A program made the position numbers and the translations under genes. From the NCBI GenBank assembly GCA_017505405.1, contig JAFVPI010000140.1, forward strand, positions 1 through 40,058: DNA of 40,058 nt, given 5' to 3'. The notes below the pieces were generated by a model. That model did not search any database and had not been told where the DNA came from. It saw nothing but the letters and a program-made list of their open reading frames with translations. This stretch comes from Mogibacterium sp. (GTDB lineage Bacteria > Bacillota > Clostridia > Peptostreptococcales > Anaerovoracaceae). Below are positions 11,382 to 34,563 of the stretch, piece after piece; the stretch's first letter is position 1, and every line of letters starts with the position of its first letter.

Positions 11382-12584
11382 ATGAAAGACCTCAAGCATC
11401 TTTTGTATTTTGAGAACCTCCTGCAGAATGCAAACAACGAACTGATAGAACAGGCCAAAAAGGACGGCAGAATCTGCGCGGCGTTTACGTGCGAGAATAT
11501 ACCGGAACCTCTGATGAACCTCGGCAACGCGTTCTCAGTTCGTCTTTTTGCGCCTAATACCGGCTCGCTGGATATCGCTACGTACTACATGACGAGCTTT
11601 CTGTGCGAGACGAGCAGGGCGCTGCTGGAGAGAGCGATCGAAGGAGGCTTCAATTTCGCGGACTGTCTGATCGCTGCGGACGGCTGCACCATGATGAACC
11701 GTGCCGCCGAAAACATGGAGCTGCTTCACACCATGGACGAGGGAAAGGACAAATTCTTTTATCAGTTCATGGAGATACCGATGAAGGCGACCGAAAACGG
11801 CGTGGCGCTCCTGAAACTGCAGAGCCAGAACCACATACTCAAACCGCTCCATGAGGCCTACGGCATCGACATATCCGAAGAGGCAATGCTCAAGGCAGTT
11901 GAGGAGCACAATGAGGTGTGCAGGCTCATCCGTGAGATCGGTGAATTCCGCAAGGAAGACGATCCGCGCATCACCGGATATGAGTTCCACGTGATCACGC
12001 TCGCAACTTATCTGGCTCCGAAGTATCTGCTCATCGACAAGCTGAGAGAGACGCTCGAGGAGATAAAGACCAGAGAGCCTGACGGCAAAAAATGGCGCGC
12101 ACGCGTACTCGTTGTCGGCTCCGAAATCGATGACATCGGCATGATAAAGCTGATCGAGGAATGCGGCACTTATGTATGCGCAGACAGATACTGCTTCGGC
12201 TCTTTCCCGGGCAGAGATCCTATCGAGATCGATCCTGATTCGGAAGATGACATCCTTACGCAGATCTGCCGCCACTACACGATGGCAAGCCAGTGCCCTC
12301 GCACGATGAACATGGAGAAGGTCTACGGCCGCAAGAAATACGTCAACGACCTCGCAAAGGAGTACAGGGCGGACGGCATTATTTACGAACAGGTGAAGTT
12401 CTGCGACCCATGGGCTTACGAGCGCATGCTGGGCTCGCACATGCTGAGAGAGGATTACGGATTCCCTGTCCTCTCCGTAGACAGACCTTACAACATCAAT
12501 GCCGGCGCAGGCCAGATGCGTACCCGTGTGCAGGCATTCATTGAAAGTATTGAGATAAAGAAACTGCAGGGAGGTGAGAAGTAA
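11382..12584 (+). CDS. 2-hydroxyacyl-CoA dehydratase-like small subunit, pair 1
   Basis: 400 residues of the HgdB/FldC/BcrB superfamily, whose heterodimers carry [4Fe-4S] clusters and remove water from 2-hydroxyacyl-CoA or reduce benzoyl-CoA after one-electron activation. Alignment with the copies at 23151 and 29377 shows invariant Cys at 37, 75, 102, 271, 305 and 341 (contexts FTCENIPE, LCETSRALLERA, GCTMMNR, DRYCFGS, SQCPR, KFCDPW). These are the candidate cluster ligands. AAGAGGAGA lies before the ATG. The stop overlaps the next start (TAATG), so the two subunits are coupled. Substrate cannot be read from sequence; no CoA-transferase gene is adjacent. Confidence 0.85.
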   Translation: MKDLKHLLYFENLLQNANNELIEQAKKDGRICAAFTCENIPEPLMNLGNAFSVRLFAPNTGSLDIATYYMTSFLCETSRALLERAIEGGFNFADCLIAADGCTMMNRAAENMELLHTMDEGKDKFFYQFMEIPMKATENGVALLKLQSQNHILKPLHEAYGIDISEEAMLKAVEEHNEVCRLIREIGEFRKEDDPRITGYEFHVITLATYLAPKYLLIDKLRETLEEIKTREPDGKKWRARVLVVGSEIDDIGMIKLIEECGTYVCADRYCFGSFPGRDPIEIDPDSEDDILTQICRHYTMASQCPRTMNMEKVYGRKKYVNDLAKEYRADGIIYEQVKFCDPWAYERMLGSHMLREDYGFPVLSVDRPYNINAGAGQMRTRVQAFIESIEIKKLQGGEK

Positions 12585-14188
12585 TGGCATTCAAAACGGT
12601 CAAGAAGATCACTAACCCTAAGAAGAAGAAAGGCGACCAGACGCTTGGCAAGCTGTATCCAACCAACGGAAAGACCAAGGTCTTCGTCCGCCGCGAGTGG
12701 AGAGGCGTAAAGGATACGCTTTATGATTATTCGAGATGGCTCTATATCATGTCCATACTCGCAAGATTCATCGCGAAGCCTCGCAATATCAAGGCGATGT
12801 TCCGCTACAGATGGATGGCCAACTATCTGGCTGTTCCTTACATGATGGATAAGTTCACGCTCGGCCTCAGAGACGAGCCTCTGCGCATCACGCACACTGC
12901 CATGAACTTCGTGATCTACGACGTAGCCAAGACGATGGACAACATCTTCAAGGGCGACCGCCGCACGGGCAACAACGAAGCTTTCTCGAAGACATGCGTG
13001 CTGACAGACGAGAACGCGATGACAGCGTTCATGATGGGATTCAAGGATACGACAGCCATCCTCAGGGAGGTCCCGACCATGTTCGTCGCCAACCTGCTGA
13101 CCCAGAACTCGACAACGCATTATCTCGACGTTGCTCAGGAATTCGGACTTCCGGGCGATGTCTGCCCTATGCCTGAGGCTGAAGCCGGCATCTCGATCGA
13201 CGACGACTTCGCAGTGCTCGGATGCTGCGCAGTACAGGTCAACACGACATGTGACGGCTCCCTCATGGGCAATGGAGTTATCGCTCACAGACTCGAGCGC
13301 GAGTACGGCATCCCTACGTTCCAGCTGACTGCGCCGCTCCGCCACAAGGAGGATGACGTTCAGGAATACGCTGCCAACGACATGAAGGAAGCAGTGAAGT
13401 TCATCGAGGAGCATGCGCACGAGAAGTGGGACTGGAAGCGTTACTTTGAGAGCGCTGCCAGAGTCAACGACGCCACAAAGCACCGCGCATTCTGGCTCGA
13501 CAACAACGCGACGTACTATCCGCAGTTCGTGGGTTCGGTATTCTCGCTCTACAATGACACCAACTACATGGGCAACTGCGGAAGATCAGAGCTCTTCCCG
13601 CCTAAGGACAAGAAGATCAGCAAGCTCGTTGAACAGGGCTACAGAAAGAAGACCATGATCTGCCCTGAGTACAGACACAGATGTATCGTATGGGGCGTAC
13701 AGCCGCAGTACAACATCCACATGCTCTACTGGATGATGCATTGCTGGGGCGTTGTGCCTCTGACAGACATGCTGTCGATGGTCAACACCGACATGATCGC
13801 CGAAGAGGATACTCCTGAGAACAGAGAGAAAGCCTGGTACGACATGGCATGGCTCAACGAGAACATGATCATGCGCAACCGTACACACGGCGGATACAAG
13901 GTTCTCGTCGATGAGCTCTGGGAGTTCTGCGAGATCATGAATGCCGACATGGTAATGATGTGGGAGCACATGAGCTGCAAGGCTCTCGACGGCCTCCACG
14001 GAATGTTCGAGGAGCAGGGCCGCGAGAGAGGCATCCATGTCGTATGGGTATGCCACGACCTTTGCGATCCGAGAGTCTACACAAGACAGGCCATCCGCGA
14101 CGAGTTCAGCCAGTACATGCGTACAGTACTGCGCGAGGAGCCGCTTGACCCGACCATCGAGCATATCCCTGACGAAAACATGTGGTAA
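12584..14188 (+). CDS. 2-hydroxyacyl-CoA dehydratase-like large subunit, pair 1
   Basis: 534 residues, clearly longer than classic HgdA/FldB partners (roughly 400-480). Shared blocks with pairs 2 and 3: TLGKLY, RREWRGVKDTLYDYSRW (about 36-52), GLPGDVCP (Cys194), TTCDGS (Cys223), HCWG (Cys387), MSCK (Cys465) and EEPLDPT at the end. The motif WSC found in pairs 2 and 3 is changed here to WGV (about 370-372), with a Cys four residues earlier (HRCIVW, Cys367). One candidate cluster ligand is thus lost or moved, suggesting different chemistry or a different cluster. GGAGGTGAG lies before the ATG. No TM-protein gene follows this pair. Confidence 0.85.
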   Translation: MAFKTVKKITNPKKKKGDQTLGKLYPTNGKTKVFVRREWRGVKDTLYDYSRWLYIMSILARFIAKPRNIKAMFRYRWMANYLAVPYMMDKFTLGLRDEPLRITHTAMNFVIYDVAKTMDNIFKGDRRTGNNEAFSKTCVLTDENAMTAFMMGFKDTTAILREVPTMFVANLLTQNSTTHYLDVAQEFGLPGDVCPMPEAEAGISIDDDFAVLGCCAVQVNTTCDGSLMGNGVIAHRLEREYGIPTFQLTAPLRHKEDDVQEYAANDMKEAVKFIEEHAHEKWDWKRYFESAARVNDATKHRAFWLDNNATYYPQFVGSVFSLYNDTNYMGNCGRSELFPPKDKKISKLVEQGYRKKTMICPEYRHRCIVWGVQPQYNIHMLYWMMHCWGVVPLTDMLSMVNTDMIAEEDTPENREKAWYDMAWLNENMIMRNRTHGGYKVLVDELWEFCEIMNADMVMMWEHMSCKALDGLHGMFEEQGRERGIHVVWVCHDLCDPRVYTRQAIRDEFSQYMRTVLREEPLDPTIEHIPDENMW

Positions 14189-14199
14189 GATCGTTAATC

Positions 14200-14302
14200 T
14201 TTTCCGCTTGCAGTTTTGTTGGCTGCGCGGTTCTGCGGTGCTCACGTACATCCAGGTATGCTCCGCTCCCCGACCGCCTGCATCCTCGCTGTGAACGGAA
14301 AA
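14200..14302 (+). repeat. Imperfect palindromic intergenic element
   Basis: Non-coding DNA after pair 1. Ends TTTTCCG (14200) and CGGAAAA (14296) are complementary, and an inner imperfect hairpin GCGGTGC...GCTCCGC is centred near 14250. It could stabilise the 3' end of the dehydratase mRNA. The pairing is modest. Confidence 0.4.
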
Positions 14303-14332
14303 TACTTCGCAATCCTGAAATTAATAAATATT

Positions 14333-14361
14333 GGCGCCCCATCACGGGGCGCCTGTTTATT
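14333..14361 (+). terminator. Terminator of dehydratase pair 1
   Basis: Perfect 8-bp GC stem GGCGCCCC-ATCAC-GGGGCGCC followed by TGTTTATTT. Strong intrinsic terminator, 145 nt after the stop codon. Confidence 0.9.
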
Positions 14362-15901: not shown

Positions 15902-15910
15902 CATTATAAC

Positions 15911-17509: not shown

Positions 17510-18868
17510 TTATTCAAACATTTTCTGAAGCTCGTATCTTTTTATCTTTCCGGTCACAGTGCGCGGCAGAGCGTCTGACGTTGTTATGACATCGCTTATC
17601 TGGCGTGAATGCGGGATGCTGCTGTTGAACTTTGCAACTTCCCTGACAAGCTTTTTCTTAATATCCGCCGCAATGGCAGGGTCTTTAGGGAAAGTGCCGG
17701 CCACCAGCACGGCTTCCCCATCCTTAAGGATGACCCCCAGATCAGGCAGGCCGCTCAGCTGTTCAATGGCCTCTTCATATTCAGGGCAGAAGATCTTATC
17801 TCCATCGGAAAGAACCAGCACGTCATTCTTGCGGCCTTTCAGGTGAAGTCTTCCCTTCTCGTCAAACCATCCGATGTCGCCGGTATAGAAGCGTCCGTCC
17901 TCAAACATAGGCTCCCTGCCCAGATAGCCCAGCATCATGCAAGGTGTTGCAACGGAGATCTCACCGTCTTCTTCTATGCGGATATCTGCGCCCGGGCACG
18001 GATACATGGCGTCAGGTTCGTCGAGATCCTGAGTGATCGCGATACCGCTCGATGTTTCCGTAAGTCCATAACCGAGATATACAGCCAGTCCTTTTTCTCT
18101 CAGACTTTCGGCCAGATACTTCGGGCACGGAGCGCCGCCGATCAGAACTACACGGAGCTCAGGATTCAGAGCATTTTTCTGTAGCATATCGGCGATCTGC
18201 GAAGGAACAGCAGGGATAATTGTCGGCTTGAAAAACAGAGCATCTCCGGTAAAACGGTGCACATCCCTTCCAAGCGCTACCGTTGCGCCGTAAGCGAGTC
18301 CCCACAGCATGGAGCATACGAACCCATATGCGTGCGACAGGGAGAGGTTGGACAGTATCAGGTCGCCTTCACCGCATGCGAGCATGCACTGGCCGCTCCA
18401 TGCGCTGGTGCAAAGTGATTTAGACGTGAGCCTTACGATCTTGGAGCTGCTCGTGGTGCCCGATGTGAAGAAGAGAAGCTCGCCTTCCCCTACTTTGCCC
18501 TTTATGCGCCCAAACTCGTCGCGCTGCATTTCGCGGGCATGTCTGGCAGCTTCAGCTGCCGCTGCGGCAAATTCGTTAAAGCCTTCCGGAACACGCGGGT
18601 CGGCGATAATGACATCACATCCGGCTAGGACGTGGGAGAAGATATCTACCAGAGAATCTACGGTCTGCTCGTATCTGACGACTTCGACACTGCTGCATTC
18701 CGCTTTTACATGGAAGGACTCAGAGATGATCATCTCGGCGAAATCCCTGTATGAGACTTCACTGGTATTGCCTTCCATGTCGCCGCAGCGTATCGCGATG
18801 CTGTCACGTGTCAGAAAGTCGTTTACAAGCTCTTCGAAGGATGAAAACTTTCTGCATATGCTATACAT
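17510..18868 (-). CDS. AMP-forming acyl-CoA ligase-like enzyme (ANL superfamily)
   Basis: 452 residues, short for the family (about 500-560). Motifs in order: the P-loop-like LLFFTSGTTSSSKIVRLT (about 131-148), YLGYGLTETSSG, the hinge region FYTGDIGWFDEKGRLHLKGRKND, and PRTVTGKIKRYELQKMF with the catalytic Lys that closes the adenylation step. It would adenylate a carboxylic acid and pass it to CoA or a carrier. It lies inside the dehydratase region, so it might make the acyl-CoA substrate, although this dehydratase class usually gets its CoA by transferase. GAGGG precedes the ATG at 18868. Confidence 0.85.
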   Translation of the reverse strand: MYSICRKFSSFEELVNDFLTRDSIAIRCGDMEGNTSEVSYRDFAEMIISESFHVKAECSSVEVVRYEQTVDSLVDIFSHVLAGCDVIIADPRVPEGFNEFAAAAAEAARHAREMQRDEFGRIKGKVGEGELLFFTSGTTSSSKIVRLTSKSLCTSAWSGQCMLACGEGDLILSNLSLSHAYGFVCSMLWGLAYGATVALGRDVHRFTGDALFFKPTIIPAVPSQIADMLQKNALNPELRVVLIGGAPCPKYLAESLREKGLAVYLGYGLTETSSGIAITQDLDEPDAMYPCPGADIRIEEDGEISVATPCMMLGYLGREPMFEDGRFYTGDIGWFDEKGRLHLKGRKNDVLVLSDGDKIFCPEYEEAIEQLSGLPDLGVILKDGEAVLVAGTFPKDPAIAADIKKKLVREVAKFNSSIPHSRQISDVITTSDALPRTVTGKIKRYELQKMFE

Positions 18869-22336: not shown

Positions 22337-22693
22337 CTACGCGTTTTTGATCAGTGAAAGAGCCTGCTCGATGAGGTCGTTGCTCTCGCCGAGCTTGTCC
22401 ACTGCATCGTGGATCAGGTCGCCTGCCACATCGTCGAAGCAGTGTGCGAGATCGTGCAACTCCTCGGCATGGTGCCTGTTGTGGGCGAGCATGTAGTTGA
22501 GAAGAGCGAGTGCTTCTTCAGGCGATGATGCTGCGGCATGCGAATGAGTGTGAGCGTGTGTATGGACTGTGCCGTCCGCATGGGTGTGCGTATGGCTGTG
22601 TCCGCAGTGCTCGTGCGAATGAGTATGCTCGTGATCGTGCTCGTGGACCTCGTGCTCATGGTCTGCGGCAATATTTTTATTATCTGTGCACAT
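22337..22693 (-). CDS. His-rich metal-binding protein (CooJ-like or cobalt/nickel storage type)
   Basis: 118 residues, about 24 of them His. Residues 12-52 are an almost regular HxH run (HEHDHEHTHSHEHCGHSH) that would bind several Ni, Co or Zn ions. Residues about 57-118 form a predicted helical domain, PEEALALLNYMLAHNRHHAEELHDLAH, with further His and one Cys. Similar short clostridial proteins are often labelled cobalt transporter, but no membrane helix is present here. A soluble metal buffer or chaperone is more likely; CooJ, the His-rich nickel chaperone of CODH, is a functional parallel, not a proven homologue. GGAGG precedes the ATG by 6 nt, and the gene has its own promoter and terminator. 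Confidence 0.8.
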   Translation of the reverse strand: MCTDNKNIAADHEHEVHEHDHEHTHSHEHCGHSHTHTHADGTVHTHAHTHSHAAASSPEEALALLNYMLAHNRHHAEELHDLAHCFDDVAGDLIHDAVDKLGESNDLIEQALSLIKNA

Positions 22694-23150: not shown

Positions 23151-24341
23151 ATGCGTGACTTAAAGCATCTGATCTACTTTGAGGACCTGCTGCAGGAGGC
23201 TAACAACGAACTCGTGCGCAAGGGCAAGGAAGACGGCAATCTGTGTCTTGGTTACACTTGCTATTTCATGCCTGAGGTCCTTCTCGATCTGCCGGGCTGC
23301 TTTGCAGTCAGACTGAGAGCGCCTAAGTGCACGTCGCCTGACATGGCTTCATACTACATGTCGGGTCGTACATGCCACTATGGCAGATCACTTCTCGAGA
23401 GAGCTCTGGAGGGCGGCTTCAACTTCATCGACGCCCAGCTCGCTACAGAGACCTGCACGGTAACATGCAGATTCCAGGAGCACCTCGAGTACATGGACGA
23501 CATTATCAATAACGCAACGTTCAAGACGTCATTCACCGATGTTCCGTTCAAGAAGAACGAGAACAGCATCGATCACTACAGGAAGCAGCTGAAGATCAAA
23601 GTTCTTGACTTCCTCGAGAAGGAGTACGGCGTAGACGTATCCGACGAGGCCATCCTGAAGGCGATCAAAATCAACAACGAAGTAAACGACATCGTCACTG
23701 AGATCGGCAATTTCCGCAAGCTCGATAACCCTACAATTACCGGTTACGAGTTCAGTGTCATCACACTTGTATCAATGGTATGCCCGAAGTATCTCATCGT
23801 TGACAAACTGAGAGAGACACTCGAGGAGCTTAAGACAAGAGAGCCTGACAAAAAGCCTAACTTCAAGATCAAGGTGCTGCTCGCGGGTTCTGAGAACGAC
23901 GATCCGGACTTCATCAAGCTGATAGAAAGCTGCGGAGCTCTCGTAGTAGCCGACAGACACTGCTACGGCTCACTTGAGGCCAGACAGCATATCGACATCA
24001 AAGAGGGTGAAGATCCTCTGACAGCTGTTGCCAGACATTACCTGCTGACCAGCCAGTGCGCGAGATTCATGGAGCAGCAGGAGATGAGACACCGCAAGAA
24101 AGTTCTCGCCGATTATGCCAAGGAGTACAAGGCAGACGGCATCATCGTGGAATCCAACAAGTTCTGCGAATACTGGAGCTTTGAGAGAATGATCGACACG
24201 ATCGTTCTGCCTAGAGACTTCGGATATCCGGTATGCTCCATCGAGAAGGAGTACATCAACACGGCATCCGGACAGCTCAGAACAAGATTCCAGGCTTTCG
24301 TTGAGAGCGTAGAGCTCAAGAAGATCCAGGAGGTCAAATAA
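23151..24341 (+). CDS. 2-hydroxyacyl-CoA dehydratase-like small subunit, pair 2
   Basis: 396 residues, collinear with the copies at 11382 and 29377 from the first residues (MRDLKHLIYFEDLLQEANNE). Candidate cluster cysteines are kept: Cys37 (GYTCYFMPE), Cys75 (TCHYGRS) and Cys102 (TCTVTCRF, with an extra Cys four residues on), plus DRHCYGS, SQCARF and KFCEYW in the C-terminal half. The second flavodoxin-like half includes VLLAGSENDDPDF. The stop is followed after 1 nt by the partner's ATG, whose ribosome site AGGAGG lies inside this gene. Substrate unknown. Confidence 0.85.
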   Translation: MRDLKHLIYFEDLLQEANNELVRKGKEDGNLCLGYTCYFMPEVLLDLPGCFAVRLRAPKCTSPDMASYYMSGRTCHYGRSLLERALEGGFNFIDAQLATETCTVTCRFQEHLEYMDDIINNATFKTSFTDVPFKKNENSIDHYRKQLKIKVLDFLEKEYGVDVSDEAILKAIKINNEVNDIVTEIGNFRKLDNPTITGYEFSVITLVSMVCPKYLIVDKLRETLEELKTREPDKKPNFKIKVLLAGSENDDPDFIKLIESCGALVVADRHCYGSLEARQHIDIKEGEDPLTAVARHYLLTSQCARFMEQQEMRHRKKVLADYAKEYKADGIIVESNKFCEYWSFERMIDTIVLPRDFGYPVCSIEKEYINTASGQLRTRFQAFVESVELKKIQEVK

Positions 24342-24342: not shown

Positions 24343-25980
24343 ATGAAAAAACCTGATTTGAAGAAACTCAAAGAAGTCGACTTCAAGAAGGCTGCTAAGG
24401 ATTTCGTCTATGGCAAGCCTCACGGAGAAAGAAGACTCGGAGACCTGTACATCCCAAAGACAGGTCTGTATAAACACAGAGAGTGGCGCGGTATCAAGGA
24501 TACCATGTACTACTTCAACAACATCTGGCTGTACAACTACGGAATGATCGTACGCGACCTCATGGTCTACGGCGGCGGCCCTAAGGGAATGATCCAGTTC
24601 CTCAAGGGAACATGGAGATACAGATGGATGGGTCAGACATACCTGACCGTAATGCACTGGTTCGACAGGTGCCTCGAGGGAATGAGAGGCGAAACACTCA
24701 AAGCTTCCGCATGGCACTTCAGAGGGATCACAAGCGCATGCCTGTACCAGATCACAGGATTCTTCAACAGAGACCTTAACATCGGCGGAGATCCGGCTCT
24801 CAGAGCAAAGACTATCGGTACAGACGAGACAGTATGGGGCGGTGTCATCTATCCGTACATGGATCAGGGTGGCTATTACCTGCCAACACAGATGATCCCG
24901 TACTTCGTAACATGCCACTGCAACAACCACACAGTACTCAACTACATCGACGCGGTACAGGCTTACGGACTCCCGGGCGACCCTTGCCCGATGTGCCAGG
25001 CCGAAGCTGGAATCTATATCGAAGACGATGTTCCTGATGCATACGTCGCGATGGTCACGACAAACGAGGCCTGCGACAGCTCGGTAGGTACATCCGTCAT
25101 TCAGGACTGGATGATGAATAAGCCGCTCTTCGCTATGCCACAGGTAATGCAGTTCGACGACGATTCCGTTCTCGAAAACTGCGCCAAGGAGATCGAGATG
25201 GCGTGGAGGTTCATGGAAGAGCAGACCGGTCTCGAGTTCCACTGGGAAGAGCTCAAGAAGCACATTGAGCTGCAAAACAAGCAGAACCAGTTCGAGAGAG
25301 AAAAATGGGATGTAGCTGCAAATACTCACAGCTATCCTATCAACGGTGTAGCTCAGGCTCTTTACAGGATCTTCTACTCGCAGTACGGTGAAAGGCCGTT
25401 CTGGCATGATGTTGATGCCAAGGTCAGAAAGATCATGGAGAAGTGCGTAGAGGAAGACATCAACACCTTCCCTATGACGAGACACAGAGTGATCGCCTGG
25501 TCATGCGCTCCGCTGTACTACTCAGCATGGTGCACATGGGCTTACAACTGCTGGGGCCTCAACACCATCATCAACATGGACTCGCTGATGTTCGACCTTG
25601 ATATCAGGACAGATACTTACGAGAACTGCCTGCTGGATATCGCTAAATATCACGAGTGGGCTCCGATGAGAAGAATGGCTGTAGGCGGACTGCAGCACAT
25701 CTTCGAGCTCTGGGAGAACATGGAAAAGTTCAACTGCGACATGGTAATGATGTACGACCAGCTGCAGTGCAAGGGCATGCAGGGCGTTGTAGGACTCTTC
25801 GAAGACGAGTTCAGAGCCCGCAACATCCACGCTATCTGGATGCCTCACGCTCTGCCTGACAAGAGAACAGTTCCTAGATCGCAGATCAGACAGATCATCA
25901 ATGACTACATGTTCACAGTAATGGGCGAAGAACCGCTCGATCCGTCACTGCTTGACTTTGACGATATCGACAGCTGGTAG
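24343..25980 (+). CDS. 2-hydroxyacyl-CoA dehydratase-like large subunit, pair 2
   Basis: 545 residues. Family blocks: RRLGDLY, HREWRGIKDTMYYF (about 45-58), GLPGDPCPMCQAEAG (Cys215, Cys218), EACDSS (Cys244), WSCAP (Cys388), NCWG (Cys403), QCKGMQ (Cys476) and EEPLDPS near the end. It has more Cys than the pair 1 partner and keeps the WSC motif. As in pairs 1 and 3, the subunit is longer than HgdA/FldB types, chiefly through an N-terminal region of about 100 residues. A small membrane-protein gene follows 14 nt later with AAAGGAGG between. Confidence 0.85.
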   Translation: MKKPDLKKLKEVDFKKAAKDFVYGKPHGERRLGDLYIPKTGLYKHREWRGIKDTMYYFNNIWLYNYGMIVRDLMVYGGGPKGMIQFLKGTWRYRWMGQTYLTVMHWFDRCLEGMRGETLKASAWHFRGITSACLYQITGFFNRDLNIGGDPALRAKTIGTDETVWGGVIYPYMDQGGYYLPTQMIPYFVTCHCNNHTVLNYIDAVQAYGLPGDPCPMCQAEAGIYIEDDVPDAYVAMVTTNEACDSSVGTSVIQDWMMNKPLFAMPQVMQFDDDSVLENCAKEIEMAWRFMEEQTGLEFHWEELKKHIELQNKQNQFEREKWDVAANTHSYPINGVAQALYRIFYSQYGERPFWHDVDAKVRKIMEKCVEEDINTFPMTRHRVIAWSCAPLYYSAWCTWAYNCWGLNTIINMDSLMFDLDIRTDTYENCLLDIAKYHEWAPMRRMAVGGLQHIFELWENMEKFNCDMVMMYDQLQCKGMQGVVGLFEDEFRARNIHAIWMPHALPDKRTVPRSQIRQIINDYMFTVMGEEPLDPSLLDFDDIDSW

Positions 25981-25994
25981 AAAGGAGGCCGGTG

Positions 25995-26234
25995 ATGAAG
26001 AAGGCTAAAAAGAAAAAAAATAAAGCCGCAGGATTCGTTAAGAAAACGCTCGGCATCGCGGCTCTTGCATATGCCGGACTGTTCTGCGTATTCTACTACG
26101 ATCTCGACGGAAAGCTGCTTTACTACGTTGTTGAGCCGTTCATGAAGAACCACTTCGACAACATGGAGAGAAGAGATCCTCATACAGTACCGTATGAGCA
26201 GATCGACAGCGAATATATGGCAGCTCAGAATTAA
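25995..26234 (+). CDS. Small single-helix membrane protein of the dehydratase cluster, copy 1
   Basis: 79 residues: a very basic N-terminus (KKAKKKKNKAAGFVKK), one hydrophobic helix (LGIAALAYAGLFCVFYY), then DLDGKLLYYVVEPF and a charged tail. It resembles the protein at 33387 in order and detail: LGIA, an aromatic-rich helix end, LDxKLL, and an acidic tail. ATG at 25995 gives a normal 6-nt spacing from AAAGGAGG; a GTG one codon earlier would be too close. Its role is unknown; it might tether the enzyme or the activase to the inner face of the membrane. Confidence 0.75.
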   Translation: MKKAKKKKNKAAGFVKKTLGIAALAYAGLFCVFYYDLDGKLLYYVVEPFMKNHFDNMERRDPHTVPYEQIDSEYMAAQN

Positions 26235-26259
26235 CTATATCAATTGCGGCCGCAGACTC

Positions 26260-26452
26260 TTGCAGAGACAGAGTGCTCGTCTCGACGCTCACGAATCTGT
26301 CATTGCATCCTCAATCGCTCCGTGCCCCGGGGCGTTTGCGGAACTCGCTTCGCTCAGACATCCGCACAACGCCAGCCGGGCCGCGTTCGCTCATTCGGTG
26401 CAGCTGACAAGATTCGCTCGCAACTCTCGACTCGCAGCTCTGCCTCTGCAAA
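26260..26452 (+). repeat. Long imperfect palindrome between the pair 2 operon and htpG
   Basis: The left arm from TTGCAGAGACAGAG (26260) to AATCTGTCA (26302) pairs imperfectly with the right arm from TGACAAGATTCG (26405) to CTCTGCCTCTGCAA (26451). The inner arms GCGTTTGCGGA and TCCGCACAACGC also pair. No gene is contained, and 26235-26495 has no other feature except the htpG ribosome site. Same general type as the repeat at 4947 but not clearly the same sequence. Confidence 0.6.
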
Positions 26453-26495
26453 CATAATAAGCGGTCAAAAAATAAGAAAAGGAAGTTATTACTAA

Positions 26496-28409
26496 ATGAA
26501 AAAGAAGTTCAAAGCCGAATCCCAGCGTCTGCTGGATATGATGATAAATTCGATCTACACGCATAAGGAGATCTTCCTGCGTGAGATCATATCGAATGCG
26601 TCCGATGCCATCGACAAGATGTGCTACCTCGCCCTGACTGACCCGTCGGTCGGAGAGAGCCGCAGCGATTACGAGATCATCATCACTCTTGACAAAGAGA
26701 ACCGCACTCTTACGGTCAGCGACAACGGGATCGGCATGGACGAGCAGGAGCTTGAGAAGAACCTCGGCACCATCGCTTTCTCGGGAAGCAGCAAGTTCAG
26801 CGAGCAGCTCGAGAAGGATTCGAAGTCGGCAGAGAGCGCAGCTGCAGATCACACCTCCGAGGTGGACATCATCGGACAGTTCGGCGTGGGATTCTACTCC
26901 GCGTTCATGGTCTCCGACAAGGTCGAGGTAGTCAGCAAGCGCTATGGATCCGACAAGGCCTACAGATGGGTCTCCGAAGGAGCCGGCGGCTACAGCATCG
27001 AGGAGGCGGAAAGAGACGGCCACGGAACTGATGTCATCATGCACATCAGACAGGACGGCGAGGAAGAGGACGAGTTCAGCCAGTACATGAGGGAATACCC
27101 TATTTACAAGCTGGTCAAGAAGTACTCCGACTACATCCGCTTCCCTATCAAGATGCTCATGCCTCAGCCGCGCATCAAAGAGGGCTCGGATCCTGAGAAT
27201 CCTGAGTACGAGGAAGTCTGGGAATACGAAGTGTTCAACTCCATGGTGCCGCTCTGGCAGCGCAGAAAGACGGAAGTCACCAAGGAAGAGTACGATAATT
27301 TCTACAAGACCACCTTCCAGGACGACACACCTCCGCTCGAGACTCTCACAGTCTCGGTCGAAGGCATCGTAAGCTACGACGCCCTGATGTTCATCCCTGA
27401 GCTTGTGCCTAACAAGTACTACACGGATGACTACACAGGCGGACTGCAGCTCTACAGCTCGGGCGTCCTCATCATGGACAAGTGCAAGGAGCTCCTGCCG
27501 GAATATTTCAACTTTGTCAGAGGCGTTGTCGACTCCCCTGACCTGTCGCTCAACATTTCGAGAGAGATGCTGCAGCACGACAGGCAGCTGAAGCTGATCT
27601 CAAACAATCTTGAAAAGAAGATCAGATCGAAGCTCGAGGAGATGCGCGACAAGAACAGAGAAGAGTACGAGAAGTTTTACAAGAGCTTCGGACGTCAGCT
27701 CAAGCTCTGCGCGCTCGATGACTACGGCAAATACAAGGAACAGCTGCAGGATCTGCTGATGTTCTGGTCATCCACAGAGGGAAAGCTCGTCACGCTGGCT
27801 GAATACGTAAGCCGCATGAAGGAGGATCAGGAGTACATCTACTACGCAACGGGCGACAGCTTTGAGGCGGTAGACAAGATGCCGCAGACTGAGGTGCTCA
27901 AGGACAGAGGCATAGAGATCCTCTACTTCACAGACAGCACGGACGGATTCATCCCTGACATGTTCGGCAGCTACAAAGAGAAGAAGTACATGTCTGTCAT
28001 CGACGGAGACTTCGATCTCGGCGACGGCAAGGACGAGGAAAAGATGAACAAGGCGTTCAAGGACACCTTCGATTTCGTCAAGGAGACCCTGGGCGACAGA
28101 GTGGATGTCGTAAAGGCGACCACAAAGCTCAAGACTCATCCGGTATGCCTCTCCAGCGGCGAGGGCATCACCTTCGAGATGGAGAAGTACTTCACGGCTG
28201 TCAATCCTGATCTGGGAATGAAGGCAAAGCGCATTCTCGAGCTCAATGTTGATCACGACGCGTTCCTGGCTCTCGACAGAGCCCGCATCGATGATCCGGA
28301 GAGAGCGAAGAAGATGTGTGAGGTGCTGCTCAACCAGGCACTGCTGATCGCAGGCCTGCCTATCCAGGATCCAAGCGCCTATACCGACGTTATTTGTTCG
28401 TTATTCTGA
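26496..28409 (+). CDS. htpG: Molecular chaperone HtpG (Hsp90)
   Basis: ATP-dependent dimeric chaperone of the cytoplasm, 637 residues, a normal bacterial length. N-terminal GHKL ATPase signatures: YTHKEIFLREIISNASDA, SDNGIGMD and IGQFGVGFYSAFMV. The middle domain has the catalytic Arg region GVVDSPDLSLNISREMLQ, and the C-terminal dimerisation domain follows. AAGGAAG precedes the ATG. It lies in one direction between dehydratase genes and the CooC-like gene, flanked on both sides by long palindromes, so it may be an inserted or insulated transcription unit. Folding help for oxygen-sensitive metalloenzymes is conceivable but unproven. Confidence 0.97.
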   Translation: MKKKFKAESQRLLDMMINSIYTHKEIFLREIISNASDAIDKMCYLALTDPSVGESRSDYEIIITLDKENRTLTVSDNGIGMDEQELEKNLGTIAFSGSSKFSEQLEKDSKSAESAAADHTSEVDIIGQFGVGFYSAFMVSDKVEVVSKRYGSDKAYRWVSEGAGGYSIEEAERDGHGTDVIMHIRQDGEEEDEFSQYMREYPIYKLVKKYSDYIRFPIKMLMPQPRIKEGSDPENPEYEEVWEYEVFNSMVPLWQRRKTEVTKEEYDNFYKTTFQDDTPPLETLTVSVEGIVSYDALMFIPELVPNKYYTDDYTGGLQLYSSGVLIMDKCKELLPEYFNFVRGVVDSPDLSLNISREMLQHDRQLKLISNNLEKKIRSKLEEMRDKNREEYEKFYKSFGRQLKLCALDDYGKYKEQLQDLLMFWSSTEGKLVTLAEYVSRMKEDQEYIYYATGDSFEAVDKMPQTEVLKDRGIEILYFTDSTDGFIPDMFGSYKEKKYMSVIDGDFDLGDGKDEEKMNKAFKDTFDFVKETLGDRVDVVKATTKLKTHPVCLSSGEGITFEMEKYFTAVNPDLGMKAKRILELNVDHDAFLALDRARIDDPERAKKMCEVLLNQALLIAGLPIQDPSAYTDVICSLF

Positions 28410-28418
28410 CAAAAGAGA

Positions 28419-28556
28419 GAGCGGTTTTATAACCCTGTCGGGCCCGCTCTCGCTAACATTCGCACGCAGCGGTACTAAGCTCTGTCTGCGCTGGCGCTTG
28501 CCAATCTCTAAGTGCCGGCGTGCTCGAGTTACCCGACCAGGGTTACAAAACCGCTC
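28419..28556 (+). repeat. 138-nt element with near-perfect 24-bp terminal inverted repeats between htpG and the CooC gene
   Basis: The left arm GAGCGGTTTTATAACCCTGT plus CGGG (28419-28442) pairs with the right arm CCCGACCAGGGTTACAAAAC plus CGCTC (28532-28556), two or three mismatches. The 89-nt interior also has GC-rich partial pairing (CGCACGCAGCG, GTCTGCGCTGG). It begins 10 nt after the htpG stop and ends 19 nt before the CooC-like start. It may be a MITE-like element or a terminator/attenuator; no U-run follows. Confidence 0.75.
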
Positions 28557-28575
28557 ATAAAAATTGGTGCAGCTA

Positions 28576-29343
28576 ATGGAAGAAAAGAGAGATACTAAAA
28601 TTTTAACAGTAGCCGGTAAAGGCGGCGTCGGAAAAACGTCGATCAGCTCCGCGATGGTCAGGATCCTCACAGAGGAATATCCTGACGCCAGGATCCTTGC
28701 GATCGATGCCGACCCTGCGATCGGACTTACGACGGCGCTCGGCGTTGAGCCGACCGATACGCTCGACGGCATCCGTAAAAAGATCGTCGGAAGCGTTGAG
28801 GAAGGCCGCCCTAAGGAAGCCATCGAAATGCTCAATGAAGCAAGGTTCCGTATTTTCGACACCATGCTCGAGGAGCAGAAGTTCAGCTTCCTGGCCATCG
28901 GAAGGCCTGAGGCTGCCGGCTGCTACTGCAAGGTGAACGCCTACCTTAAAGAGGTCATCAGCCTGCTGGCCAACGACTTCGACTATGTAGTCATTGACGG
29001 CGAAGCGGGTATTGAGCAGATCAACAGAAGAGTAATGGAAAAAGTCACGCATCTCTTCCTGATCACCGACCCGAGCCGCAAGGGCTGCCAGGTGGTGGAC
29101 ACCATCAAACAGGTTGCCGATGAGCTCGTAATGTACGACAAGTGCGGAGTCATCGTCAACAGAGTCAAGGAGGAATCGATTCCTCATATCAAGATCGAAT
29201 CGGCAGAAGTGCTTGCCTACATCCCTGATGACAGGACACATGCCGAGAACGATATACTGGGCGTAAGCGTATTCGACCTGCCGGAGAATTCCCCGGTAAT
29301 GGCCGGTACACGCGAAGCGCTCCGCAAGATGCAACTGATATAA
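28576..29343 (+). CDS. cooC: CooC/AcsF-type nickel-insertion ATPase
   Basis: P-loop NTPase of the MinD/SIMIBI class that helps load nickel into CODH or acetyl-CoA synthase. In the 255-residue form: deviant Walker A GKGGVGKT (14-21), DADP (44-47), GRPEAAGCYCKVN with the CxC pair Cys116/Cys118 that binds metal at the CooC dimer interface, and VVIDGEAGIEQINRR (138-152). The ATG at 28576 is chosen because the family fold starts a few residues later; TTG 28564 and GTG 28567 in frame are alternatives, and no good ribosome site marks any of them. Dehydratase pair 3 follows 33 nt on, so the ATPase is co-transcribed with it, an unusual context. Confidence 0.85.
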   Translation: MEEKRDTKILTVAGKGGVGKTSISSAMVRILTEEYPDARILAIDADPAIGLTTALGVEPTDTLDGIRKKIVGSVEEGRPKEAIEMLNEARFRIFDTMLEEQKFSFLAIGRPEAAGCYCKVNAYLKEVISLLANDFDYVVIDGEAGIEQINRRVMEKVTHLFLITDPSRKGCQVVDTIKQVADELVMYDKCGVIVNRVKEESIPHIKIESAEVLAYIPDDRTHAENDILGVSVFDLPENSPVMAGTREALRKMQLI

Positions 29344-29376: not shown

Positions 29377-30573
29377 TTGAAAGACTTGAAGCATTTGATC
29401 TACTTCGAGAGCCTTCTGGACAACGCAGACAACGAACTGGTAGAACAGGCGAAAAAGGACGGCAAGCTCATCATGGGCTATACATGCTATCACATTCCTG
29501 AAGTTCTGCTGAACGTTGACAACTGCGTATCGGTCAGACTCCGCGCACCGAGAACGGGTTCAATCGACATTTCTACCTATTACATGTCGAACTACGTATG
29601 CGAATACGCCCGTGCTCTGCTTGAAAGAGCTATCGAAGGCGGATTCCAGTTCCTGGACGGACTCGCAGGTGTGGATGCGTGCTCAATGATGAACAGATTC
29701 TACGAGCATTTCAGCATCCTTAAGTGCAACACCAAGGAAAACTTCTTCGTTACACACCTGGATGTTCCGTACAAGACAGAGGAATTCTCATTCAATCACA
29801 TGCAGAGACAGCTCGAAGTAAGGCTTCTTGATGTTATGTATGACAAGCTGGGCGTAGATGTTTCGGACAAGGCCATCAGAAAGGCCGTTAAGGAGCACAA
29901 TGAAGTCTGCAAGATCATGCAGCAGATCAGTGAAATGCGTAAGGCAGACAACCCTGTGATCACGGGATACGAATTCCACGTTCTGAACCTCGTGACCTAC
30001 ACATGCCCGAAGTATCTGATCCTGCCTTATCTCAAGGAGACACTGGCAGAGCTCAAGAAGAGGAAACCGGACGAGAAGCTGCCTAGATGCAGAGTGGGAA
30101 TCGTAGGTTCCGAGATCGATGACCCTGAGTTCACAAAGATGATCGAAGATGCCGGCGCAAGAGTCGTATTCGACAGACACTGCTTCGGAGCGATCCCTGG
30201 CAGAGAAGTCATCGAACTCACAGACGACGAGGATGCACTTCCGCAGATCGTACGCCACTACATGAACACATCAGAGTGCGCACGATACATCGCTGACAAC
30301 AAGGTGCTGCAGAGAAGAGAGACAGCAGACAGACTTGCCAGGGAGTTCAAGGCAGACGGCATCATCTATGAGCAGATGAAATACTGCGACTTCTGGGGAT
30401 TCGAAAGAGCTCTCGTAAGCCACATCATGTCAGAGGAATACGGCTGGCCGGTCCTTTCGATCGACAGACTGTATAACGCTAAGGGATCCGGACAGCTCAG
30501 AACAAGATTCCAGGCTTTCGTGGAATCGCTTGAGATCAAGAAGATCCAGAAAGCAAGGAAAGGAGGCAAGTAA
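29377..30573 (+). CDS. 2-hydroxyacyl-CoA dehydratase-like small subunit, pair 3
   Basis: 398 residues; starts with TTG 6-7 nt after GAGGGAGG, and MKDLKHLIYFESLL matches the starts of the other copies. Conserved cysteines at 37 (GYTCYHIPE), 75 (VCEYARALLERA) and 102 (ACSMMNR), and in DRHCFGA, SECARY and KYCDFW. Like copy 1 and unlike copy 2 it has the GSxDI(A/S)TYYM block after the first Cys region. It is coupled to its partner (3-nt gap, AAAGGAGGC inside its end) and to the upstream CooC-like gene. Substrate unknown. Confidence 0.85.
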   Translation: MKDLKHLIYFESLLDNADNELVEQAKKDGKLIMGYTCYHIPEVLLNVDNCVSVRLRAPRTGSIDISTYYMSNYVCEYARALLERAIEGGFQFLDGLAGVDACSMMNRFYEHFSILKCNTKENFFVTHLDVPYKTEEFSFNHMQRQLEVRLLDVMYDKLGVDVSDKAIRKAVKEHNEVCKIMQQISEMRKADNPVITGYEFHVLNLVTYTCPKYLILPYLKETLAELKKRKPDEKLPRCRVGIVGSEIDDPEFTKMIEDAGARVVFDRHCFGAIPGREVIELTDDEDALPQIVRHYMNTSECARYIADNKVLQRRETADRLAREFKADGIIYEQMKYCDFWGFERALVSHIMSEEYGWPVLSIDRLYNAKGSGQLRTRFQAFVESLEIKKIQKARKGGK

Positions 30574-30576
30574 GCT

Positions 30577-32442: not shown

Positions 32443-32461
32443 TATATATTCATAAAAAACA

Positions 32462-32533
32462 CAGCAAAACATTAAAATTCCAAGGTTTTGCTGGCGTAAG
32501 GAAACTTAATAGTGTAGAATAGTTTACGCAAAA
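32462..32533 (+). promoter_or_regulatory. Competing hairpins between pair 3 and the activase gene
   Basis: CAGCAAAAC (32462) pairs with GTTTTGCTG (32484). The same GTTTTG can instead pair with CAAAAC at 32528, extended by GCGTAA (32494) with TTACGC (32524). The choice looks like an attenuator or processing switch. TAGAAT at 32515 is a possible -10 for separate activase transcription. No U-run follows on the plus strand. Confidence 0.45.
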
Positions 32534-32573
32534 CTGCACTTCAATTTCAGAAGTTAAATAAAGGAGAAAAGAA

Positions 32574-33365
32574 ATGAAATATTATGGCGGCTGTGATGTA
32601 GGTTCAACTTATACCAAGGCAGTTATTCTCGATGAGGATGGCAAGATCGTTGCTGATACCACTATCAAGAGCAAGATCAATTCCGAAGCTTCCGCTAAGC
32701 TGGCTATGGAAGAAGTACTCAAGAAGGTAGGCCTCAAGTCCTCCAAGGACCTCGCTTATCTGATCGGAACAGGATACGGACGTAACAAGGTTCCTTTCGC
32801 TGACGAGAACATCTCCGAGATCTCCTGCCACGCTATGGGCGTACACGTAACAGACCCAAGCGTAAAGGCTATCATCGATATCGGCGGACAGGACGTCAAG
32901 GGCATCGCTGTTGATACAGACGGAACAGTTAAGAACTTCGCTATGAACGATAAGTGCGCTGCCGGAACAGGCAGATTCTACGAGGCTATGGCAAGATCGT
33001 TCGAGATGACTCTCCCTGAGTTCTCGAAGCTGTCCCTGACTGCTAAGAACGTTATTCCTATCACTGCTCAGTGCACAGTATTCGCTGAGTCCGAAGTAAT
33101 CACACTCGTTGGTGAAAACAAGCCAATGGATGAGATCGCTGCAGGAATCCAGATGGCTGTTGCTAAGAGATGCTTCGTAATGGCTAAGAAGGCCGGCGCT
33201 ACAGACTCCATCACACTTACAGGCGGATGTGCTAAGAACGATGGTCTCAAGGACGCTATCGAGCATGTACTCAAGCTGAAGGTCATCAACCTCAAGACAG
33301 ACCCGCAGCTGATGGGAGCACTCGGTGCTGCTGAATTCGCTCGTCAGAAGGGACAGGCTAAGTAA
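32574..33365 (+). CDS. 2-hydroxyacyl-CoA dehydratase activase (HgdC/FldI family ATPase)
   Basis: 263 residues, normal family length. Homodimeric ASKHA ATPase with one [4Fe-4S] cluster between subunits that injects a low-potential electron into the dehydratase at the cost of ATP. Visible: phosphate loop GGCDVGSTYTKAVI, IDIGGQDVKGI, cluster cysteines Cys128 (NDKCAAGTGRF) and Cys167 (AQCTVFAESEV), and adenosine motif LTGGCAKNDGL. It is the only activase in the window and must serve all three pairs unless others lie elsewhere. AAAGGAG precedes the ATG. A small membrane-protein gene follows 21 nt on. Confidence 0.95.
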   Translation: MKYYGGCDVGSTYTKAVILDEDGKIVADTTIKSKINSEASAKLAMEEVLKKVGLKSSKDLAYLIGTGYGRNKVPFADENISEISCHAMGVHVTDPSVKAIIDIGGQDVKGIAVDTDGTVKNFAMNDKCAAGTGRFYEAMARSFEMTLPEFSKLSLTAKNVIPITAQCTVFAESEVITLVGENKPMDEIAAGIQMAVAKRCFVMAKKAGATDSITLTGGCAKNDGLKDAIEHVLKLKVINLKTDPQLMGALGAAEFARQKGQAK

Positions 33366-33386
33366 TCCAGAAAAAGGAGTACTACT

Positions 33387-33569
33387 ATGAAAAACAAGAA
33401 GAAATGCCCTGTTTGCAAGGCGCTGAAGCTCGTCACAACGATCCTCGGCATCGCAACAGGAACACTCTTCGTGGTCTATTTCCTCAACCTCGACCAGAAG
33501 CTCCTTGCATGGGCTTATGCCAGAGTAAATGAGATCTTCGACCGCAAAGAGGTAGATATCAAATTCTAA
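33387..33569 (+). CDS. Small single-helix membrane protein of the dehydratase cluster, copy 2
   Basis: 60 residues: basic start with a CPVC motif (KKKCPVCKALK), a hydrophobic helix (ILGIATGTLFVVYFL), then NLDQKLLAWAYARVNEIFDRKEVD. It resembles the 79-residue protein at 25995 (LGIA, LDxKLL, acidic C-terminus). Coupled to the activase gene with AAAAAGGAG before the ATG. The two Cys could bind a metal or cluster. Function unknown. Confidence 0.75.
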   Translation: MKNKKKCPVCKALKLVTTILGIATGTLFVVYFLNLDQKLLAWAYARVNEIFDRKEVDIKF

Positions 33570-33582
33570 CTGCACTTATGAT

Positions 33583-33610
33583 AATGCCCCTGTGGAAGCG
33601 CAGGGGCATT
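33583..33610 (+). terminator. Strong hairpin after the activase operon
   Basis: AATGCCCCTG-TGGAAGCG-CAGGGGCATT, perfect 10-bp stem. The tail ACAATAATAA lacks a U-run, so it is an imperfect terminator or an mRNA 3'-end stabiliser. Confidence 0.6.
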
Positions 33611-33640
33611 ACAATAATAATCAAGACAATCCAAGTCGTA

Positions 33641-33808
33641 TGTGAGCCGCAGCTACCCCCGGACATATTCCATCCGGAGTATGATGCTCAATAGCATGCG
33701 ATAGCTGGTATAGGCTTAAGGGCCGTAACTTCGAAAGCGTGCGTAAGTTAACAGCTGCGGTACAGTCCGCACGTTCCGGATGAAATACGTCCGGGCGCGC
33801 GGCTCAAA
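33641..33808 (+). ncRNA. Highly structured RNA, possible raiA-type motif, upstream of the ACS-beta-like gene
   Basis: About 168 nt closed by GAGCCGC (33644-33650) with GCGGCTC (33799-33805). Inside are AGCTA/TAGCT, CCGGA-N9-TCCGG twice, ATGCT-CAAT-AGCAT, AACTT/AAGTT, and GCGG-TACAGT-CCGC. Nearly every segment pairs, and single-stranded joints such as GGTATAGGCTTAAG look conserved. The layout reminds me of the clostridial raiA RNA motif, from memory only. It ends 4 nt before the GAGAGGG ribosome site of the next gene, so a cis-regulatory role is also possible. Confidence 0.65.
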
Positions 33809-33822
33809 TAGAGAGGGATTTA

Positions 33823-34563
33823 ATGGAACTTTATAATTCAATTATCGAAAAAGTCGATGGGCTGCTCGGCTCTGCACAGCCTAAGCGGTATGATTTTAAT
33901 CCGGCTAAGTGCTGGGAAGATGTCGGCGGAAATCAGCTGGTCATGATGAAGGAATCCGCGTATGAGCTCGGCGGCGACAGCAAGCCTGCAGTAAATTACG
34001 CGTGTGTTACTTCGACGGATGGTTTTGCGGACAAGGATGAGATACTGGTCTACGGAAAGGATCTGAATCAGATCAGCGGCAGCGTATCCTTCGCCAGGAT
34101 CGTTATCGTAAAGGTAAACATCCTTGACGGCGAAGGCGAAGAGGATACGGAGCCGCTGTTCAGGGCCATCCAGGACATCGATTTCGTAAAGTATCACGTT
34201 TATCCTAAGGGATACATGATCAGGTCCTCTTCAGACAGCTACCGCGAGCAGGTCAGAGTCTCGAAGGAAGCTGTCCGCAGGGGGATCACCTTTGAGCAGG
34301 TCGGCAACTCATACATCGCTCAGTATAAGAAGAACCCTAACATCGTATCGGTAAAGGTGATCTTCGTAACGGCTGACGACGCGGATTACGCCGGAATGAG
34401 AGCTGATGCCAAGAAGACAAGAGACATCACGATGACCTTGTCGAAGATCCTTGAAGGAATGGCGACTGACTGCCACAGCTGCAGCCTTAGGGAGATCTGC
34501 GACGAGGTAGAGGGCCTAAAGGAACTCCACTTCGGTAAGGAGAAGAAAGAGTTCAAGGGCTAG
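33823..34563 (+). CDS. Stand-alone acetyl-CoA synthase beta (CdhC/AcsB)-like protein
   Basis: 246 residues. From family memory, YELGGDSKPAV, EQVRVSKEAVRRGITFEQVG and SVKVIFVTADD correspond to the ACS-beta segment before the A-cluster, in enzymes that join CO, a methyl group and CoA. Full bacterial ACS is about 730 residues and archaeal CdhC about 400-470. The sequence ends soon after C217HSC220SLREIC226, a CxxCx5C motif where ACS has the first A-cluster cysteines; the later CGC motif is missing. It is therefore not a complete ACS. It could be a metal- or Fe-S-binding partner of the CooC-like ATPase or dehydratases. GAGAGGG precedes the ATG; a terminator follows. Confidence 0.65.
   Translation: MELYNSIIEKVDGLLGSAQPKRYDFNPAKCWEDVGGNQLVMMKESAYELGGDSKPAVNYACVTSTDGFADKDEILVYGKDLNQISGSVSFARIVIVKVNILDGEGEEDTEPLFRAIQDIDFVKYHVYPKGYMIRSSSDSYREQVRVSKEAVRRGITFEQVGNSYIAQYKKNPNIVSVKVIFVTADDADYAGMRADAKKTRDITMTLSKILEGMATDCHSCSLREICDEVEGLKELHFGKEKKEFKG

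Follow-up and report, generated by a model that had tools for sequence, protein, structure and literature searches.

Which enzyme do the long subunits of the HGD-D family form when genes of the kind that serve nickel in carbon monoxide dehydrogenase (CODH) and acetyl-CoA synthase (ACS) lie beside them? The question is raised by a contig of Mogibacterium sp. (JAFVPI010000140.1 of assembly GCA_017505405.1; contig C131 below), of which a stretch of 40,058 nucleotides, the window, has been analysed. The source genome (G000) is a Mogibacterium-like gut metagenome-assembled genome (MAG) of 2,305,637 bases in 148 contigs, 95.3% complete; a bacterial 16S search aimed at its lineage gave no match. Four further loci of this genome are labelled L002 (contig C66), L003 (C86), L004 (C87) and L005 (C64). 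The genome has five long HGD-D pairs, three in the window and one each on contigs C23 and C66. The three in the window, with large subunits of 534, 545 and 621 residues, were found where an earlier, sequence-only reading had placed them, and their large subunits match PF06050 with E values from 3e-24 to 8e-37. We give about even odds to the reading that the locus encodes an ATP-driven two-subunit reductase of the benzoyl-CoA reductase/2-hydroxyacyl-CoA dehydratase (HAD) superfamily with a dedicated metal-maturation module. Judged from its sequences, the gene cassette most likely specifies a reductase of unsaturated substrates resembling the class I benzoyl-CoA reductase BzdNO and the double-cubane cluster protein (DCCP), matured by a module of CooC and a short ACS-like protein, which we call mini-ACS. 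It is best filed as a new combination of an enzyme of the benzoyl-CoA reductase/HAD/DCCP superfamily with a maturation module of the CODH/ACS type.

The genes form a conserved unit. Pair 3 belongs to the core cassette, which has the order CooC, small subunit, large subunit, activase, membrane peptide and mini-ACS, while pairs 1 and 2 and the pairs on C23 and C66 are satellites. A contig scan with the five large subunits gave at least 525 confirmed relatives from at least 591 pattern matches; the top matches are in Mogibacterium MAGs of the goat and sheep gut. From these relatives the 80 best loci, mostly of Clostridia MAGs from gut and rumen, were retained, and their neighbours were counted by script, centred on the matched large subunit and using only contigs that reach far enough. 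The small subunit lies directly upstream of the large subunit in 76/76 reaching loci, and CooC is found upstream in 69/70 (missing in L064). Downstream, the activase is present in 46/46, the membrane peptide in 38/39 (missing in L076) and mini-ACS in 29/31 (missing in L015 and L076). All six genes keep this order in the seven long-enough core loci read from other genomes (L087, L088, L089, L091, L092, L095 and L096); the L094 core locus is cut by a contig end and stands outside this count. The loci of these genomes, which carry labels beginning with G, may overlap with the 80 loci of the contig scan.

A less biased test of co-occurrence was made in 391 genomes sampled evenly across the class Clostridia, with E <= 1e-20 required for mini-ACS and E <= 1e-40 for the large subunit. 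The two proteins are found in an identical set of seven genomes (G000, G153, G324, G341, G361, G430 and G446). Identical sets of six among the other 390 genomes would have p ~2e-13 if genomes were independent, and the true significance is weaker because the six include two genomes of one genus and three of one family. Chance neighbourhood was rejected since the gene order recurs in the 80 loci and the same 7/391 genomes carry both proteins. The linkage of the pair with CooC and a short CdhC-like gene, seen at a single locus in the sequence-only reading, is thus conserved in this survey. Within the order, three of 148 genomes (G000, G136 and G143) gave a strong match to mini-ACS. Another 13 genomes of the order gave matches of 26-30 bits to the mini-ACS profile within frames of 715-726 residues; these have been taken for true ACS, and the full ACS motif was seen in the four that were fetched.

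The small subunit carries six cysteines (C37, C75, C102, C269, C301 and C337) that are kept in 113/113 small subunits of at least 350 residues. In profile alignment these six align with the ligands of the [8Fe-9S] cluster of BzdN, given as Cys36, Cys73, Cys100, Cys263, Cys293 and Cys327 in the available part of PMC11971306. Because all six are fully conserved, the small subunit is predicted to hold an [8Fe-9S] double cubane, and the non-standard cluster suspected in the sequence-only reading has gained support from this pattern. The same alignment finds 6/6 of these cysteines in BzdN and in DCCP, 4/6 in HadC of 2-hydroxyisocaproyl-CoA dehydratase (HadBC) and ~3/6 in the methylbenzoyl-CoA reductase subunit MbdN (9g87), so the full six-cysteine pattern is a trait of the Bzd type. 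The small subunits reach 68-84 bits with the HadC model (cut-off 700) and at most 97 bits with the BzdN model (cut-off 454). Their best NCBIfam relative is the DCCP model NF040772 (cut-off 350), which gives 129-142 bits with the small and 16-44 bits with the large subunits. The enzyme should work like a double-cubane reductase, yet it is none of the named ones.

In the large subunit, C287 and C316 align with Cys95 and Cys128 of BzdO, and C552 aligns with Cys380 through a weak stretch only; the C552 position is a gap in 3/118 aligned large subunits. Two large-subunit cysteines also align with DCCP ligands. A fourth cysteine, C478, is invariant in 118/118 large subunits, there is no fifth invariant cysteine, and a profile comparison of large with small subunits (probability 19%) was too weak to place C478. 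The active-site residues of BzdO have been given as Tyr97 and His131 (PMC11971306, partial text). The position of His131 is taken by Ser319 (Cys+3) in 20/20 aligned large subunits, and that of Tyr97 (residue 289, Cys+2) by Met in 12, Val in seven and Arg in one. The Cys+3 register was anchored on the ligand cysteine, where the profile alignment is one residue off. The large subunit also has an N-terminal extension carrying REWRG..DT.

The cassette enzyme is therefore like BzdNO (8s02) in having two HGD-D subunits with an activase, as well as six small-subunit and three large-subunit cluster cysteines. On the other hand, it differs from BzdNO at both active-site positions and in the REWRG extension, its scores stay far under the benzoyl-CoA reductase models, and its cassette adds CooC, mini-ACS and a membrane peptide. 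With DCCP (6eno) and its reductase it shares the six double-cubane cysteines and the ATP-dependent activase. The homodimeric DCCP has a cluster in both of its subunits (PMC11971306, partial text), whereas the cassette enzyme is a heterodimer that has about three of the six cysteines in its large subunit and scores 142 bits at best against the cut-off of 350.

The Pfam assignment to HGD-D and activase families, together with several pairs and one activase in the window, could also be explained by an ordinary 2-hydroxyacyl-CoA dehydratase set of the HgdAB, HadBC or FldBC type, in which substrate-specific pairs share the activase. HadBC shares the fold family, the heterodimeric build and the activase with the cassette enzyme. 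The window also has an AMP-binding, acyl-CoA-ligase-like gene at 17510-18868, the sole hint of an acyl-CoA and a gene with no relative in 92 other loci, and in 11 loci the cassette is immediately followed by 2-enoate-reductase-like genes of the old yellow enzyme (OYE) type, of a kind that could come after a dehydratase. We consider this explanation improbable. HadC has Pro and Ala at the positions of C37 and C269, where Cys is found in 113/113 small subunits; its model scores are those given above; and a dehydratase set leaves CooC, mini-ACS and the membrane peptide without explanation. The dehydratase identity was rejected on the two cysteines that HadC lacks and on the catalytic-site positions of BzdO, which differ too. 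What the sequence-only reading called an undescribed metal-linked reductive system survives as a conserved unit of core pair and accessory genes, without the label of dehydratase. Its single activase is right for the window, but satellite pairs elsewhere can own one (L032 and L095).

Over its first 200 residues mini-ACS resembles ACS domain 2, by PF03598 and by profile matches to solved ACS chains (best E value 2.6e-6), and hhalign against four AcsB sequences gave a probability of 85% with an E value of 6e-6. Most of ACS domain 3 is absent. The pattern DC-x2-C-x5-CDEV.G..E.H.G is present in 32/32 aligned sequences and in 32 of the 45 mini-ACS genes of the loci. In eight mini-ACS proteins of more distant genomes the pattern varies, with three Cys and a His at the same spacing. 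Three Cys and a His in ACS-like order are thus present in 40/45 genes (32 by pattern, eight read), and contig ends truncate the remaining five. ACS has C-x2-C-x8-C-x9-C at the same place, with a CGC later. Order and spacing suggest that the cysteine tails of mini-ACS and ACS are homologous, while the profile alignment stops before the tails. The sequence-only reading had described an ACS-beta-like fragment; the likeness holds, but a broken ACS gene was rejected, since the short form of ~240 residues is a family conserved in 32 aligned sequences.

One mini-ACS stands against several pairs, namely five in G000, at least three in G361 and at least two in G446, and the five pairs of G000 have a single CooC and a single CdhC-family gene. 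Because there is one copy per several pairs, mini-ACS is read as a shared maturation or activation factor and not as a catalytic subunit.

The CooC-type ATPase with an intact CxC that had been named from the sequence is confirmed by its match to CooC (3kje). The CxC is invariant in 79/79 CooC sequences, and the P-loop GKGGVGKT is invariant in 12 aligned. Exactly one CooC-like gene (E <= 1e-8), the one in the cassette, is found in G000, G136, G143, G341, G361 and G446; G153 gave no CooC match, and its cassette contig ends inside the large subunit. G324 and G430 have four and five CooC-like genes, respectively, of which the cassette copy scores 424-425 bits and the rest at most 195, and for this reason the cassette CooC is regarded as a dedicated, separate subfamily. 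CooT occurs in 15/80 loci, beside a His-rich gene in 15/15, and the same is seen in L092, L095 and L096; the window is an exception, with the two genes 12.5 kb apart. CooT starts with MCL (15 sequences), and its Cys2 takes part in nickel binding (PMC6006190, partial text). The His-rich protein matches no Pfam family at a meaningful score. Both proteins had been noticed beside the pairs in the sequence-only reading, and both are present, although as a looser, facultative part of the unit.

A set of CooC, CooT, His-rich protein and a mini-ACS resembling ACS domain 2 looks like the CODH/ACS maturation apparatus. In the available text of a survey of CODH and hybrid cluster protein (HCP) neighbourhoods (eLife 2026, PMC13056359), CooT and CooJ are reported only from the CODH operons of two clades, E and F. 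The source genome, 95% complete, was searched for CODH/ACS and has no match to the Prismane family (PF03063; CODH/HCP) and no CdhC-family gene besides mini-ACS. A CODH operon elsewhere as the source of the accessory genes was therefore rejected. The cassette also differs from CODH/ACS maturation in its separate CooC subfamily and in a mini-ACS without CGC. A Prismane match (CODH or HCP) is present in 4/8 other cassette genomes. Among nine cassette genomes, NiFe hydrogenase is matched in two, each covering only 69-70 of 508 model positions, LarA in four, one of them barely, and urease in none. G000 and G136 have no match to Prismane, NiFe hydrogenase, LarA or urease, so no nickel client of a known family was found in these two genomes.

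The nickel genes could instead serve another nickel enzyme, chiefly an oxidoreductase like the putative isoprene reductase IsrA, with the HGD-D pairs as mere neighbours. After the fifth pair and a nitroreductase-like gene on C66, a protein of 949 residues (L002:12548-15397) has the domain make-up of IsrA (Fer4_20, FAD/NAD, Fer4), a flavo-iron-sulphur oxidoreductase; it is likened to IsrA by domain make-up, length and neighbours only. Its relatives lie beside HypA in L089 and L049. The available text of PMC10134865 describes IsrA neighbourhoods as rich in HypA and HypB, with TetR and DUF5692 (frequency 0.4) also listed, and reports the host as an anaerobe without NiFe hydrogenase. A DUF5692 membrane protein (PF18948, 412 bits) is encoded in the window at 19077-20198, between pairs 1 and 2, and has no relative in the other loci. 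The IsrA operon is thus similar in placing nickel chaperones by a double-bond reductase, but its reductase is a single flavo-iron-sulphur protein, accompanied by HypA/HypB and a ferredoxin, and the operon as described there has neither activase nor HGD-D genes. CooC is upstream of the core pair in 69/70 loci, against IsrA-like genes (>700 bits) in 3/92 loci (L002, L049 and L089), many of the 92 being short. CooC is also not listed among the IsrA neighbours in the available text of PMC10134865, and in G324 and G430 the cassette has its own CooC, well apart in score from the others. We attach little likelihood to this explanation.

The CooC/mini-ACS module probably inserts nickel. A more specific proposal, that the enzyme is a Ni-Fe-S reductase on the benzoyl-CoA reductase/dehydratase fold, in which CooC, with mini-ACS for docking or transfer, places nickel at the large-subunit cluster (C478 being the extra ligand) and ATP provides the drive through the double cubane, is put forward tentatively, at less than even odds. 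If true, it would add a further biological Ni-Fe-S catalyst to CODH, ACS and NiFe hydrogenase, with up to five pairs in one genome of the gut Clostridia. It would be an iron-only double-cubane reductase, on the other hand, if CooC and mini-ACS serve Fe-S assembly or the delivery of low-potential electrons without nickel, CooT and the His-rich protein being loose neighbours. Known Fe-S sites account for all predicted catalytic ligands save C478, CooT and the His-rich gene are facultative (8/29), and the CooC ATPase may be a folding chaperone rather than a nickel donor (PMC6006190, partial text). However, BzdNO with its double cubane has been made in E. coli from a plasmid described, in the available text of PMC11971306, as carrying bzdNO, so the double cubane has no obvious need of CooC or mini-ACS. 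Also, the CxC metal site is kept in every CooC sequence (79/79), and there are two loci with HypA and one with HypB. We regard the iron-only enzyme as rather unlikely.

For the reductase with a metal-maturation module, a mechanism can be proposed. The activase would hydrolyse ATP and force electrons into the small subunit, where the [8Fe-9S] double cubane would act as an electron store. The electrons would then pass to an open-site [4Fe-4S] cluster of the large subunit, the putative site of substrate reduction. CooC would mature the enzyme; CooT and the His-rich protein would assist it in some loci, and HypA, HypB or a CbiM-type transporter in one or two. Mini-ACS may be a common docking or cluster-transfer partner, a role suggested by the five pairs of G000 sharing one CooC and one mini-ACS. 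The likeliest cargo would be nickel, placed at the large-subunit cluster with its extra C478 or at the Cys3His site of mini-ACS.

Several observations weigh against this account. The neighbour counts are not independent, many of the 80 loci belonging to rumen and gut MAGs that are close relatives of one another. The nickel-binding CGC motif of ACS is present in 0/45 mini-ACS genes, and the IsrA-like oxidoreductase beside the C66 pair is a possible nickel client in the source genome itself. No more than 8/29 core loci have CooT and the His-rich gene in the 3.5 kb downstream, counting both strands (CooT anywhere in the stretch in 13/29), and the two are therefore not a fixed part of the cassette. 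An Rfam scan of the window and a further 23 loci, 21 of which belong to other genomes, found no metal riboswitch at the gathering score; at this score the window is empty and the other loci have only tRNAs, glycine riboswitches and Clostridiales-1 RNA. The satellite pairs on C23 and C66 have no adjoining CooC or mini-ACS, so their link to the module rests on the single genome copies of these genes. In favour of the account, the ordinary HGD-D loci L003 and L004 of the source genome lack CooC, mini-ACS and the membrane peptide in the stretches read, a weak control that is limited by L004 starting near a contig end.

The sequence-only reading had missed the membrane peptide after pairs 2 and 3. 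Counted over the 82 large subunits whose contigs extend 350 bases or more beyond them, it follows 63. The 19 exceptions include many core pairs on contigs that stop short of the end of the activase gene, but window pair 1 and the C66 pair seem truly to lack the peptide. In 69/76 members of the family the Kyte-Doolittle mean is at least 1.6 over 19 residues. The peptide might anchor the pair at the membrane, which would suggest a hydrophobic unsaturated substrate. An OYE-type reductase gene lies right behind mini-ACS, or behind mini-ACS with the His-rich gene and CooT, in 11/92 loci with gaps of -3 to 89 bases. Such a gene is also found behind a satellite pair in L035 and L095, and OYE-like genes occur in 20 loci overall. 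The four scanned resemble BaiCD and bilirubin reductase, below the cut-offs. A neighbouring enoate reductase of the OYE type or like IsrA may take the product further. Neighbours differ by lineage and include OYE/BaiCD-like, aldehyde ferredoxin oxidoreductase, LarA/Etf and URO-D/B12 genes. An unsaturated and perhaps hydrophobic substrate fits these neighbours, which fall short of proof.

Genes for CooC, CooT and His-rich nickel proteins are usually taken to indicate CO metabolism. Here they mark something else, and genomes may be misannotated for this reason. The cassette links ATP-driven double-cubane reductases with the nickel enzymes CODH and ACS, and no earlier link was found: searches, mostly confined to the open-access literature, gave no paper that brings HGD-D dehydratases or double-cubane proteins together with genes for CooC, CooT or ACS-like proteins. 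That one genome can hold several pairs suggests that microbes of the animal gut carry out a family of difficult reductions, and the six genes are a compact target for expression and metal analysis.

Table. Features of the window and the evidence for each (positions in the 40,058-nucleotide stretch).
Feature	Position	Strand	Evidence or remark
CooT-like protein, 62 residues, N-terminus MC	9616..9804	+	PF10133 E 4.7e-16, 59.3 bits; 1.6 kb upstream of pair 1
Pair 1 small subunit (satellite)	11382..12584	+	PF06050 E 3.6e-84; six double-cubane cysteines
Pair 1 large subunit, 534 residues (satellite)	12584..14188	+	PF06050 E 3.2e-24
His-rich protein, CooJ-like by composition alone	22337..22693	-	sequence
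Pair 2 small subunit (satellite)	23151..24341	+	PF06050 E 5.1e-87
Pair 2 large subunit, 545 residues (satellite)	24343..25980	+	PF06050 E 1.1e-27
Small membrane peptide after pair 2	25992..26234	+	family profile; mean Kyte-Doolittle 1.63 over 19 residues
Presumed HtpG (Hsp90-like), between pair 2 and CooC	26496..28409	+	named from its sequence
CooC-type P-loop ATPase, CxC (CYC) intact	28564/28576..29343	+	CooC 3kje E 6.6e-17
Pair 3 (core) small subunit	29377..30573	+	predicted [8Fe-9S] site C37, C75, C102, C269, C301, C337
Pair 3 (core) large subunit, 621 residues	30577..32442	+	predicted open-site [4Fe-4S] C287, C316, C552; extra C478; N-terminal REWRG..DT
ATP-dependent activase, BadF/HgdC family	32574..33365	+	PF01869 E 9.2e-57; TIGR00241 E 1.2e-64, 218 bits (cut-off 125)
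Small membrane peptide, 60 residues, core cassette	33387..33569	+	mean Kyte-Doolittle 2.07 over 19 residues
Mini-ACS: ACS domain 2-like with C-x2-C-x5-C-x9-H tail, without CGC	33823..34563	+	PF03598 E 3.5e-8, 33.9 bits (cut-off 24)

A tree of 118 large subunits (FastTree, midpoint rooted) places the 79 core-linked sequences in one half, together with the group of C23, C66 and pair 1, and the pair-2 type apart. The pair 1 large subunit groups with the C23 and L093 satellites. From their placement in this tree, the satellite pairs look like old paralogues rather than recent copies. A lone C-terminal piece of a small subunit, 62 residues long, is encoded on C64 (L005:1882-2070) and looks like a decayed sixth pair.

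Other HGD-D genes of the source genome have different surroundings. A DCCP-like gene with its own activase is located on C86 (L003). The HGD-D gene on C87 (L004) is clustered with genes read by eye as MtaA/UroD-like methyltransferases, and this cluster is perhaps of the kind described in PMC10418091 (partial text).

HypA is found beside the IsrA-like genes in L089 and L049. In L049, HypB and CbiM score above the cut-off, while CbiQ and its ATPase partner stay below theirs; the family name of CbiM is that of a cobalt transporter. An FeFe hydrogenase also lies nearby in L049, and we know of no case in which HypB serves an FeFe hydrogenase.

Around the cassette, aldehyde ferredoxin oxidoreductase genes lie a few kb upstream in L087 and L088 (G324 and G430, which are related genomes). 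LarA-like genes are near the cassette in L069, L081 and L086, with genes of the Etf (electron transfer flavoprotein) type too in L081 and L086. In two of these loci (L081:4793-4956 and L086:4553-4718), Clostridiales-1 RNA (RF01699) separates a satellite large-subunit gene from the membrane-peptide gene that belongs to it; to our knowledge, no function is known for this RNA. The intergenic stretches 26234-26495, 28409-28563 and 33576-33822 appear repeat-like and palindromic by eye, and an inverted-repeat search of the cassette gave four weak pairs only. Relatives of the presumed HtpG are found in 22/92 other loci of several lineages, and HtpG is possibly a chaperone for the large subunits. Finally, the window (7483-8277) and G446 (L090:4991-5791) each have a DUF1295 (PF06966) membrane gene in the vicinity of long HGD-D pairs, and the two genes are related.

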